A DNA stretch of 64,000 nt from Cellulomonas fengjieae. Its GTDB lineage: Bacteria > Actinomycetota > Actinomycetes > Actinomycetales > Cellulomonadaceae. Positions 9,465 to 15,408 of this stretch are shown here, one piece after another. Under the pieces are notes generated by a model that made no database searches, was not told the DNA's origin, and worked only from the letters and a program-made list of their open reading frames with translations. Location of the stretch: the NCBI RefSeq assembly GCF_018388465.1, contig NZ_CP074404.1, positions 2,852,001 to 2,916,000 on the forward strand. Reading direction: 5' to 3'. Positions within the stretch are counted from its first letter, which is position 1. Every line of letters starts with the position of its first letter. The translations under genes and the position numbers were made by a program.

Positions 9465-10589
9465 TCAGTGCGGCTGGTACGGGCTGACGACGACCTCGAC
9501 GCGCTGGAACTCCTTGAGGTCGGAGTAGCCCGTGGTGGCCATCGCGCGGCGCAGCGCCCCGACGAGGTTGAGCGTGCCGTCGGCGGTGTGGCCCGGGCCG
9601 AACAGGATCTGCTCGAGCGAACCGGCGGTACCGACCTCCACGCGCTCACCGCGCGGCAGCTCCGGGTGGTGCGCCTCGGGCCCCCAGTGCCACCCGCGGC
9701 CCGGCGCCTCGGTCGCCCGGGCCAGGGCGGCGCCGAGCATGACGGCATCCGCGCCGCACGCGACGGCCTTGACCAGGTCGCCGGAGCGACCCACCCCGCC
9801 GTCGGCGATCACGTGCACGTACCGGCCGCCGGACTCGTCGAGGTAGTCCCGTCGCGCGGCGGCGACGTCGGCGACCGCCGATGCCATCGGCGCGTGGATG
9901 CCCAGGGACACCCGGGTGGTGTGGGCGGCGCCGCCGCCGAAGCCGACGAGCACCCCCGCCGCGCCGGTGCGCATCAGGTGCAGCGCGGCCGTGTAGGTCG
10001 ACGCGCCGCCGACGATGACGGGCACGTCCAGCTCGTAGATGAACCGCTTGAGGTTCAGCGGCTCGGCGCGACCGGAGACGTGCTCGGCCGACACGGTGGT
10101 GCCGCGGATGACGAAGAGGTCGACACCCGCGTCCACCACGGTCCGCCAGAACTCGTTGGTGCGCTGCGGCGACAGGGCGCCGGCCACGGTGACCCCCGCC
10201 GCACGGATCTCCTTGAGGCGGGCGGTGATGAGCTCGGGCTGGATCGGCGCGGCGTAGATCTCCTGCATGCGTGCCGTGGCGCGCGCGCTGTCGAACGTGG
10301 CGACCTCGTCGAGCAGCGGTGCCGGGTCCTCGTAGCGCGTCCACAGCCCTTCGAGGTCGAGGACACCCAGGCCGCCTGCCCGCCCCAGGGCGACCGCCGT
10401 GTCCGGGCTCATCACCGAGTCCATGGGCGCCGCGATGATCGGCAGGTCGAAGTGGTAGGCGTCGATCTGCCATCCGACCGAGACCTCCTTGGGATCCCGC
10501 GTCCGCCGCGACGGGACGACGGCGATGTCGTCGAAGGAATATGCCCGGCGTCCGCGCTTGCCACGGCCGATCTCGATCTCGTTGCTCAC
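9465..10589 (-). CDS. guaB3: GuaB3 family IMP dehydrogenase-related protein
   Basis: The 374-residue protein aligns by eye with IMP dehydrogenase (DDIAVVPSRRT, IAAPMDSVM, VIADGGVGRSGDLVKA) but has no CBS domains. Where true IMPDH has GPGSICTTR with the catalytic Cys, this has GFGGGAAHTTR, so that Cys is absent. This is the actinobacterial GuaB3 form, whose in vivo reaction I do not assign. The GTG start at 10589 follows TAGCCT by six bases. In Mycobacterium and Streptomyces guaB3 sits beside guaB; here three genes intervene. Confidence 0.9.
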   Translation of the reverse strand: MSNEIEIGRGKRGRRAYSFDDIAVVPSRRTRDPKEVSVGWQIDAYHFDLPIIAAPMDSVMSPDTAVALGRAGGLGVLDLEGLWTRYEDPAPLLDEVATFDSARATARMQEIYAAPIQPELITARLKEIRAAGVTVAGALSPQRTNEFWRTVVDAGVDLFVIRGTTVSAEHVSGRAEPLNLKRFIYELDVPVIVGGASTYTAALHLMRTGAAGVLVGFGGGAAHTTRVSLGIHAPMASAVADVAAARRDYLDESGGRYVHVIADGGVGRSGDLVKAVACGADAVMLGAALARATEAPGRGWHWGPEAHHPELPRGERVEVGTAGSLEQILFGPGHTADGTLNLVGALRRAMATTGYSDLKEFQRVEVVVSPYQPH

Positions 10590-11531: not shown

Positions 11532-11549
11532 TATCTCATATATGAGATA
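11532..11549. promoter_or_regulatory. Perfect 18-bp palindrome, candidate operator
   Basis: TATCTCATATATGAGATA equals its own reverse complement. It is strikingly AT-rich for this genome, ends 11 bases before the ATG of the HTH-MurA gene, and touches the first two bases of its likely -10 (TACCGT, 11548-11553). The size and symmetry suit a dimeric Cro/C1-type HTH, the type encoded by the N-terminus of the adjacent gene. Confidence 0.75.
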
Positions 11550-11553
11550 CCGT
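11548..11553 (+). promoter_or_regulatory. -10 hexamer TACCGT, leaderless HTH-MurA start
   Basis: TACCGT lies seven bases before the ATG at 11561. No ribosome binding site is present, which supports a leaderless transcript. The palindrome fills the space where the -35/-10 spacer would be. Confidence 0.5.
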
Positions 11554-11560
11554 CATCGGC

Positions 11561-13135
11561 ATGACCACGACGATTCCCCTGGTTCCGACCTCCACCGGAG
11601 CCGTGCCGACCATCGCGGACCCGCTCGCGCACGTCGGCTCACTCGTCCGTTCCGCACGGCAGCACCGCGGAATGACCCAGGCGCAGCTCGCAGAGCGCCT
11701 CGCCACCAGCCAGTCGGCGATCCACCGCATCGAGCAGGGCGCCCAGAACGTCAGCCTGGAGATGCTCACCCGCATCGGCGCCGCCCTCGACTCCCCCATC
11801 GTCACGCTCGGCGGTCCGCAGCGCACCCACCTCCGGGTGCAGGGCGGTCAGACCCTGAGCGGACGCATCGACGTCAACACCAGCAAGAACGGCGCCGTCG
11901 CACTCCTGTGCGCGTCGCTGCTCAACCGGGGCACCACCCGGCTGCGCAACGTCGCCCGCATCGTCGAGGTGGACCGGATCGTCGAGGTGCTGCGCTCCGT
12001 CGGGGTGCGCGCCACCTGGTCGACGGACGGCCGTGACGTCGAGATCGTCGTCCCCGAGCACCTCGAGCTGGACGCCATCGACGTCGACGCCGCACGCCGC
12101 ACGCGGTCGATCATCATGTTCCTGGGTCCTCTCCTGGGGCTCGAGGACGAGTTCCGGCTGCCCTACGCCGGCGGCTGCGACCTCGGCACGCGCACGGTCG
12201 AGCCCCACCTCATCGGCCTGCGCCCCTTCGGCCTGGACGTGACGGCGACGGCCGGCGACTACCACGGTCTCGTGACCCGCGGCGGTGCGGAGAACCTGAC
12301 GATCGTCCTGACCGAGCGCGGCGACACCGTGACCGAGAACGTCATCATGGCCGCGGCTCGCCGCGACGGCGTGACCACCATCCGCAACGCGAGCCCGAAC
12401 TACATGGTCCAGGACCTGTGCTTCTACCTCGAGCTGCTGGGCGTGCGCATCGACGGCATCGGCACCACGACCCTGCGCGTGCACGGCCTCGCGGAGATCG
12501 ACGCCGACGTGGAGTACGCGGTCTCGGAGGACCCGGTGGAGGCGATGAGCCTGCTCACCGCCGGCATCGTCACCGGCTCGCAGATCACGGTCGGCCGCGT
12601 GCCGATCGAGTTCATGGAGATCGAGCTGGCGACCCTGGCCGAGATGGGGCTGCGTTACACGCTCTCCGAGGAGTACGCCGCCGCCAACGGCCGCAGCCGG
12701 CTCGTGGACGTCACCGTCCACCCCAGCGAGCTGCGCGCGCCGATCGACAAGATCCACCCGATGCCGTTCCCCGGGCTGAACATCGACAACCTGCCGTTCT
12801 TCGTCGCGATCGCCGCGTGCGCCGAGGGTTCGACGCTGGTGCACGACTGGGTCTACGAGGGCCGCGCGATCCACCTGACCGACCTCACGCGGCTCGGTGC
12901 CGACGTCCGGCTCCTCGACGCGCACCGGTTGCAGGTCAGCGGCCCGACGCGCTGGTCCGGTGCCGAGGTGTCGTGCCCTCCGGCGCTGCGCCCCGCCGTC
13001 GTCATCCTGCTCGGGATGCTCGCCGCCAAGGGCACCTCGGTGCTGCGCGACGTCGACATCATCGCGCGCGGGTACGAGCAGCTGCAGGAGCGGCTGGTCG
13101 AGCTGGGCGCTCGCATCGAGACCTTCCGCGACTGA
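11561..13135 (+). CDS. HTH (Cro/C1-type)-MurA fusion: UDP-GlcNAc 1-carboxyvinyltransferase family protein
   Basis: This 524-residue protein joins two domains. Residues ~23-80 form an XRE/Cro-type helix-turn-helix (MTQAQLAERLATSQSAIHRIEQG). Residues ~88-524 form a complete MurA/EPSP-synthase-type domain. Residues matching the E. coli MurA active site are kept: Lys109-Asn110 (K22-N23), Cys206 in AGGCDLGTR (C115), Arg211 (R120), Asp409 (D305) and Arg503 (R397), so catalysis looks possible. MurA adds enolpyruvate from PEP to UDP-GlcNAc, the first step of peptidoglycan synthesis. The gene stands alone with a palindromic operator candidate upstream. Autoregulation, and sensing of UDP-GlcNAc or PEP, are inferences. 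It could also be only an accessory MurA. Confidence 0.9.
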   Translation: MTTTIPLVPTSTGAVPTIADPLAHVGSLVRSARQHRGMTQAQLAERLATSQSAIHRIEQGAQNVSLEMLTRIGAALDSPIVTLGGPQRTHLRVQGGQTLSGRIDVNTSKNGAVALLCASLLNRGTTRLRNVARIVEVDRIVEVLRSVGVRATWSTDGRDVEIVVPEHLELDAIDVDAARRTRSIIMFLGPLLGLEDEFRLPYAGGCDLGTRTVEPHLIGLRPFGLDVTATAGDYHGLVTRGGAENLTIVLTERGDTVTENVIMAAARRDGVTTIRNASPNYMVQDLCFYLELLGVRIDGIGTTTLRVHGLAEIDADVEYAVSEDPVEAMSLLTAGIVTGSQITVGRVPIEFMEIELATLAEMGLRYTLSEEYAAANGRSRLVDVTVHPSELRAPIDKIHPMPFPGLNIDNLPFFVAIAACAEGSTLVHDWVYEGRAIHLTDLTRLGADVRLLDAHRLQVSGPTRWSGAEVSCPPALRPAVVILLGMLAAKGTSVLRDVDIIARGYEQLQERLVELGARIETFRD

Positions 13136-13148
13136 CCGCTCCTTCGAT

Positions 13149-13199
13149 CAGCAACCCGGAATCCCCCTGACCCTCGGTCAGGGGGATTCCGGGTTGCTG
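13149..13199. terminator. Perfect 24-bp stem hairpin between convergent genes
   Basis: Bases 13149-13172 are exactly complementary to 13176-13199 with a 3-base loop. It serves the HTH-MurA gene and also contains the last six codons and the stop of the MazG-like gene on the opposite strand. Both strands read Ser-Asn-Pro-Glu-Ser-Pro in one frame as a result of the symmetry. Confidence 0.9.
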
Positions 13200-13525
13200 G
13201 GCGCTGCGCCGTCGCGGGCCAGGTGGGCGCCGAGCTCTGCCATGGTCCGGTCGAAAGCCGCCTCCAGGTCGACGCCGTAGGTGTCGGCCAGCGACATCAC
13301 CGACCAGAGGCAATCGGCCAGCTCGTGCGCGAGAGCCTGATCGAGGTCCTCGCGTGGTCGCACGCCCGCCTTCCCCTGCACGAGCTTCGCCAGGTCCCCG
13401 ACGTCGCCGAGGAAGCCGAGCATGAGCTCCTCGTCGTTCCAGCGGCGCCCGTACCGCGCGGTCTCCCGCGCCGCGTAGGCGCCTCGGACCGCACGCGCCT
13501 TCTCCTGCATCTCCCGGAACTCCAC
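13178..13525 (-). CDS. MazG-like nucleotide pyrophosphohydrolase family protein
   Basis: The 115-residue product is all-helical in character and contains HELADCLWSVMSLADTYGVDLEAAF, the second half of the MazG/dUTPase-like Mg-binding signature. The first acidic pair is Asp in GDVGDLAKLV rather than the usual Glu. Such proteins hydrolyse (d)NTPs to monophosphates; the substrate here is unknown. The GTG at 13525 is chosen because homologous-looking sequence begins there and GATACT lies six bases before it. The C-terminus is encoded inside a terminator hairpin. Confidence 0.75.
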   Translation of the reverse strand: MEFREMQEKARAVRGAYAARETARYGRRWNDEELMLGFLGDVGDLAKLVQGKAGVRPREDLDQALAHELADCLWSVMSLADTYGVDLEAAFDRTMAELGAHLARDGAAPSNPESP

Positions 13526-13860
13526 GCGCCCAGTATCGAGGTGCCGATGCGTCGAAGGGCGCGAAAGCGCGAGTCCCGGCAGCGCGTGCACGCACCATCC
13601 GCCCGCACGGGCAGCACCGCCCACGCCTCACCGGAGCCATCGTCCGCCGGGCTTCGCGACGCGGGTTGACCGGCCTGGTCCGCCGACCGGCCGCCCAGCG
13701 CGTGCAACGCCGCGGCCAGGGCGTGCCCGTGCTCGCTGGTCAAGAACCCAGCCAGGTGACACCCCTCGGTGCTCTGGGACAGCGTGAGGAACTCCCGCTC
13801 GCTCGCCTCGCAGCGGCCCAGCTCCGCGACCAGGCTGGTCTGGTCGCCCGGTGCGCCCGC
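13526..13860. other. 335-base gap between mazG-like gene and guaB, no gene called
   Basis: On the minus strand, the frame following the guaB stop reads through LVAELGRCEASEREFLTLS and on to TSEHGHALAAALHALGG without a stop. It looks protein-like, but it lacks a convincing start and runs into the mazG-like gene in another frame. It may be a decayed gene. No hairpin terminator for guaB was found. Confidence 0.4.

Positions 13861-15408
<1,548 letters not shown>

Follow-up and report, generated by a model that had tools for sequence, protein, structure and literature searches.

A Cro/C1-type DNA-binding domain fused to a divergent MurA: a probable enzyme and repressor of its own gene

The gene at positions 11561..13135 on the + strand of the window (the whole stretch of DNA that was analysed, 64,000 nucleotides from Cellulomonas fengjieae) encodes HTH-MurA, in which a helix-turn-helix (HTH) domain is fused to a MurA-like enzyme. 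Comparison of the protein and its promoter with those of its relatives indicated that HTH-MurA probably has two roles, as a UDP-GlcNAc enolpyruvyl transferase that is divergent yet functional and as a repressor of its own gene. In the proposed mechanism, the HTH “heads” of two subunits would bind the palindrome TATCTCA-N4-TGAGATA, the half-site centres of which are 11 bp apart. The promoter would be leaderless, and the bound HTH-MurA would cover its -10 box and keep RNA polymerase out, so that negative feedback would hold the enzyme level. More speculatively, the protein may grip DNA differently when a substrate, product or inhibitor is in its active site. The initial annotation had suggested that the protein binds DNA and adjusts transcription, and named no target; judged by the conserved operator, it very probably does so, with its own promoter as the target.

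Domain make-up and distribution of the family

The open reading frame encodes 524 amino acids, with an ATG start, and its coordinates include the stop codon. Residues 26-80 (11636..11800, + strand) formed the Cro/C1-type (XRE, HTH_3) domain, which scored 45.8 bits with the Pfam model HTH_31 (PF13560, cut-off 27) and 42.6 bits with HTH_3 (PF01381, cut-off 23). In a PDB sequence search, the HTH alone matched the solved structures of PlcR, C.BclI, ClgR, SinR and the 434 repressor, among others. The recognition-helix region TSQSAIHRIEQG, recognised by the conservation of SQSA or SQGA, was located at residues 49-60 (11705..11740, + strand). The enzyme part at residues 93-512 (11837..13096, + strand) matched the complete EPSP_synthase profile of Pfam (1-417 of 417) with 142.5 bits against a cut-off of 22.8, and it was similar to solved MurA structures, with 5ujs as the top match (E 2.3e-54). 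The coordinates, the strand and the fusion of the two domains, both of which scored over the Pfam cut-offs, were thus correctly described in the initial annotation, which had also warned that close homologues without the HTH would point to a wrong start. The HTH Pfam domains were found in 120/120 of the best homologues out of 8000 scored. This result and the conserved distance between operator and start codon described below ruled out a wrong start or a chance HTH. A homologous protein with 94% identity was present in Cellulomonas sp. Leaf395. Public records call members of the family “helix-turn-helix domain-containing protein” or “UDP-N-acetylglucosamine 1-carboxyvinyltransferase”, so the architecture was already visible in annotation.

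The distribution of the HTH and EPSP_synthase fusion, which the initial annotation had proposed to map, was that of one family. The sample of the window's class comprised 394 genomes, of which 114 had HTH-MurA (E <= 1e-60), and the identity of these matches was 61-79% with the HTH included, the window's own copy excepted. The identity between canonical MurAs and HTH-MurA was about 31-34%. No HTH-MurA was found outside the class among 296 genomes of the phylum, where 12 genomes matched and 12/12 belonged to the window's class. The gene was carried by 5 of 13 genomes of the window's genus and, more widely, by members of 16 or more named families of actinobacteria, Streptomyces among them. In a quick tree of 63 rows, calculated without bootstrap and with E. 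coli MurA flagged as a long branch, all 37 HTH-MurA enzyme domains were on one side of a single branch (SH-aLRT 99, length 1.73), with 23 canonical MurAs (E. coli included) across that branch and three AroA-like rows as the outgroup. The simplest reading is that HTH-MurA is a single old fusion with common descent.

The named loci used in this study were the best 80 of at least 584 confirmed candidates and lean to close relatives; 78 were left after removal of duplicates. The 128 distinct family loci (at least 50% identity) consisted of these 78, which represent 16 named families and one without assignment, and 50 others, and the alignment of 127 rows omits one frame-broken gene (381 codons). 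Frame-broken copies of HTH-MurA were seen in the genomes G097, G224 and G315; the copy in G097, in which the break is perhaps an assembly error, was the only MurA-type gene found there.

A conserved gene context was considered and rejected, with IMPDH-like and exonuclease genes as the neighbours in the window versus aconitase in two Streptomyces loci. The ORFs flanking HTH-MurA in the window at 9465-10589 and 13861-15372 (both on the - strand) were an IMP-dehydrogenase-like ORF (Pfam IMPDH) and, by eye, a guaB-like ORF. A small ORF facing HTH-MurA (13178-13624, - strand) had no Pfam match at 1e-5 and looked MazG-like by eye.

The operator and its link with the recognition helix

The putative operator was the perfect 18-bp palindrome TATCTCATATATGAGATA at 11532..11549 (no strand assigned), with the arms TATCTCA and TGAGATA around 4 bp. 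Within the window, no other site matched it with 3 or fewer mismatches, and 100 shuffles gave 0 matches. The perfect palindrome was found once in the 4-Mb genome, ahead of the HTH-MurA ATG, and the same genome contained three sites with exactly 3 mismatches, compared with one for the reversed control. Other loci were scored out of 14 by their closest match to TATCTCANNNNTGAGATA in a stretch of 200 bp, and a score of 11 or more was counted as an operator. By this measure, 124 of the 128 loci of the family had TATCTCA-N4-TGAGATA ahead of the gene (score 14 in 24 loci, 13 in 71, 12 in 16, 11 in 13, and 7-8 in the remaining four). Because the 128 loci lean to close relatives, the 5' ends of the 65 remaining carriers of the class sample were added, and the operator was present in 65/65 of these loci, which may repeat genomes of named records (14 in 18, 13 in 42, 12 in 4, 11 in 1). 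Counting 6 more Streptomyces genomes in which it was seen by position, the operator was found in 112 of the 114 carriers in the class sample, the two without it being G097 and G287.

The upstream regions of 44 canonical murA genes had no operator, with best scores of 6-9 of 14, and a score of 11 was reached in 14 of 6400 shuffled controls. When up to 2 mismatches were allowed in the window's genus, sites were found in 5/5 carriers versus 0/8 non-carriers. Outside this genus, 14 of 30 non-carriers had at least one chance site, which counts against our reading to the extent that the presence of an operator alone is not diagnostic there. In another genome of the same genus, a second and weaker operator copy with 2 mismatches (G002:C5:36012-36029) was located about 60 bp upstream of the main one.

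The operator appeared to run into the promoter. Its final TA was shared with the predicted -10 box TACCGT (11548..11553, + strand), identified by sequence. This box stood 7 bases before the ATG, from which a leaderless transcript is predicted. The final TA of the palindrome opened a TANNNT box in 119 of 124 loci and in 64 of 65 loci of the further set. The distance between operator and ATG was 11 bp in the window, and an in-frame start codon was located 10-12 bp downstream of the operator in 117/124 and 63/65 loci, respectively. This spacing, kept in the relatives, supported the annotated ATG as the start. A generic sigma-70 promoter scan gave no match, which counts against the promoter as proposed; a terminator scan gave none either. 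The position of the operator also bears on a rival with a nearly even prospect, according to which HTH-MurA either exerts plain feedback by its concentration alone, with no metabolite control, or activates transcription from its own promoter. The overlap of the site with the -10 box, just ahead of the start codon, is the usual place for a repressor and speaks against activation; plain feedback is taken up in the last section.

The recognition helix was conserved together with the operator. SQSA or SQGA was present in the helix in 124/124 loci with the operator and in 0/4 loci without it, and in 65/65 loci of the further set. The four operator-less loci belonged to one genus (g10 of family f8). 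In the three of them that could be aligned, the identity of the HTH to the consensus was 42-44%, which was 6.6-6.7 SD below expectation, whereas the identity of the enzyme domain was still 75-77%. All four loci retained TACGAT 7 bases ahead of an ATG. A fifth member of the genus, L194, retained both the operator (13 of 14) and the helix residues. This genus shows, as far as sequence comparison can tell, that the enzyme half persisted once DNA binding had been abandoned. The linked loss suggests that the operator and the HTH belong together, and it is stronger evidence than the presence of the site. Three of the losers (L195-L197) formed one clade in the tree, so the linked loss was probably one event, which reduces its weight.

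These results can be set against the explanation that HTH-MurA is an enzyme only, in which the HTH is a leftover or serves dimerisation, whereas the palindrome is bound by a different regulator or is an element of the promoter. DNA binding is not a necessary property of XRE domains, and the four loci above live without operator and helix. However, recognition-helix residues 49-53 and 62-63 were kept in 120-124 of 127 sequences, the operator and the helix were lost together, and the non-carriers of the window's genus had no such site, all of which make this explanation highly improbable.

The search for other targets pointed back to the HTH-MurA gene itself. Among 80 genomes, the 50 carriers (275.7 Mb) contained 100 sites with 2 or fewer mismatches and the 30 non-carriers (108.7 Mb) contained 23, the latter giving a background of 0.21 sites per Mb. 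About 46 of the 100 carrier sites should adjoin HTH-MurA, given that all carriers but G097, G287, G106 and G277 score at least 12 there. The remaining sites, about 54, correspond to about 0.20 per Mb, equal to the background. No sign of a wider regulon was thus seen among the sites listed, and the circuit looks self-directed. The reversed control gave fewer matches than the motif in carriers and non-carriers and is therefore an unfair yardstick of chance; in 14 Streptomyces genomes searched with a looser motif, there were 3-21 forward matches each versus 0-5 in this control. Among the matches listed for these Streptomyces genomes, no second recurrent site was found, with one exception near aconitase, TATCTCGATGTCGAGATA, a palindrome distinct from the operator. 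Of the 80 named loci, 22 had the palindrome TATCTCGATGTCGAGAT(A) in the 4 kb upstream of HTH-MurA. In the Streptomyces loci L173 (about 3700) and L191 (about 3566), it was located between aconitase and HTH-MurA, adjoining the aconitase start, and variants of it occurred also in genomes without HTH-MurA.

The enzyme half

Residues K22, C115, D305 and R397 of E. coli MurA were equivalent to K109, C206, D409 and R503 of the window protein, respectively. In a first alignment of 156 family sequences, the equivalents of K22, C115, R120 and R397 were present in 156/156 and that of D305 in 155/156. In a second alignment, the equivalents of K22, N23, R91, C115, R120, H125, D231, D305, R331, R371 and R397 were all present in 127/127. 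Other residues differed. D369 was Asp in 44/44 canonical MurAs and in E. coli and in 0/127 HTH-MurAs. Residues S162, V163, G164, T304 and Q307, each conserved in 44/44 canonical MurAs, were replaced in 127/127 HTH-MurAs, with the exception of S162, which was replaced in 126/127. The initial annotation had described the MurA fold as catalytically intact on the basis of five residues (K22, C115, R120, D305 and R397). These are indeed present, but the description was too strong because D369 and the S162-V163-G164 loop differ from those of canonical MurA. The protein scored 285.9 bits with TIGR01072, the equivalog model of canonical MurA, below the cut-off of 392.7, which counts against its function as a MurA; the looser subfamily model NF006873 was passed (305.6 versus 297 bits). 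HTH-MurA therefore resembled canonical MurA (TIGR01072; E. coli b3189) in its whole EPSP_synthase domain and in the equivalents of K22, N23, C115, R120, D305, R371 and R397, but differed in the N-terminal HTH, the TIGR01072 score, the separate clade and the replacement of D369, S162-V163-G164, T304 and Q307.

The replaced residues, invariant in the 44 canonical MurAs, could mean that HTH-MurA is a regulator only, in which the MurA half is a dead sensor of UDP-GlcNAc and canonical MurA does the chemistry. A canonical MurA was also found in 78 of 121 carriers, where HTH-MurA need not be the main enzyme, and this counts against our reading as well. The source genome is one example: the canonical murA that the initial annotation proposed to look for was found beyond the window, at 2522402-2523667. 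A third EPSP_synthase gene of this genome scored like AroA and was not a TIGR01072 match. In the other carriers, however, no other MurA-type protein was found. HTH-MurA was the only TIGR01072 match in 13 of 50 and 30 of 71 carriers, together 43 of 121, and these 43 genomes were 89-100% complete. A PF00275 search of the first 13 of them revealed HTH-MurA and one AroA-like gene and nothing else. In the non-carriers, a canonical MurA over the cut-off was present in 30/30 genomes. As the only MurA-type protein in 43 carriers, HTH-MurA very probably works as a MurA, as far as can be judged from genome content. The invariant equivalents of Cys115, Lys22, Asp305 and Arg397 and the genus that lost the DNA-binding residues yet kept the enzyme domain also speak against a dead sensor, which we consider improbable. 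For an active HTH-MurA, the absent D369 and the altered S162-V163-G164 loop raise the question of what the MurA reaction strictly needs.

The Cys115 position was occupied by Asp in 15 of 44 canonical MurAs (L229-L241 and others) and by Cys in 127/127 HTH-MurAs, so some genomes pair both types. In the Streptomyces genomes G392, G128 and G214, a third MurA-like gene was seen, with scores of 236-239 bits, below the TIGR01072 cut-off.

Known systems and control of the committed step

BirA, PutA and NadR are autogenous enzyme-repressors, or trigger enzymes, in which an enzyme and a DNA-binding part are combined and act on the promoter of their own pathway. HTH-MurA likewise joins an enzyme and a DNA-binding part in one polypeptide. 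It differs from these proteins in fold and pathway, and its sole recognisable operator is in its own promoter. An operator in the own promoter, by which trigger enzymes are judged, was found by sequence at 124/128 and 65/65 loci. HTH-MurA and lambda Cro both had the letters QSAI in the helix, and TATC was present in the half-sites of both. No BLASTP alignment was obtained between lambda Cro and the HTH of HTH-MurA, and the likeness is a lead rather than a relationship. Metabolite gating, in which UDP-GlcNAc, PEP or the product in the active site would determine how tightly the HTH holds its own promoter, is speculative and is put forward tentatively, as a possibility short of probable. Nothing that we found separates gated from ungated control, which is in favour of plain feedback, and Cro-type proteins often act by concentration alone.

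In Streptomyces, the two loci that were checked (L173 and L191) had HTH-MurA and aconitase in divergent orientation, and an available section of one paper describes SCO5998 as divergent to acnA SCO5999 (PMC12161575). On account of this shared gene arrangement, Streptomyces murA2 (SCO5998; sven5810/vnz_28735) is very probably HTH-MurA. In the parts of the literature available, murA2 is described as a UDP-GlcNAc transferase gene under BldM-WhiI, SigB or DmdR1 (PMC12161575, PMC11005364, PMC8346170, PMC4125116). According to these excerpts, it is a target of BldM-WhiI, for which a footprint is given (PMC4125116), it is SigB-dependent in S. coelicolor (PMC8346170), and its overexpression failed to reproduce the phenotype of whiI overexpression (PMC11005364). 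The available sections of the four papers contain no mention of a DNA-binding domain or self-control of murA2 (PMC12161575, PMC11005364, PMC8346170, PMC4125116). Among the matches listed in a search of open-access full text, preprints aside, no paper dealt with a MurA that binds DNA or regulates itself. BldM-WhiI and SigB, as reported in those excerpts, are other regulators that act on the gene in Streptomyces, which counts against our reading. Several regulators on the gene in some carriers provide other ways to set its level, and this again favours plain feedback over metabolite gating.

The known control of MurA is mostly post-translational. One example is reported for Enterococcus (PMC12077105). 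If the proposed repression is correct, HTH-MurA would be, to our knowledge, the first peptidoglycan-precursor enzyme known as its own repressor. With the repressor built into MurA, the committed step of cell-wall synthesis would be controlled from within the enzyme itself, in a group of bacteria that includes Streptomyces. If metabolite gating were also true, this committed step would measure its own workload and set its own expression.
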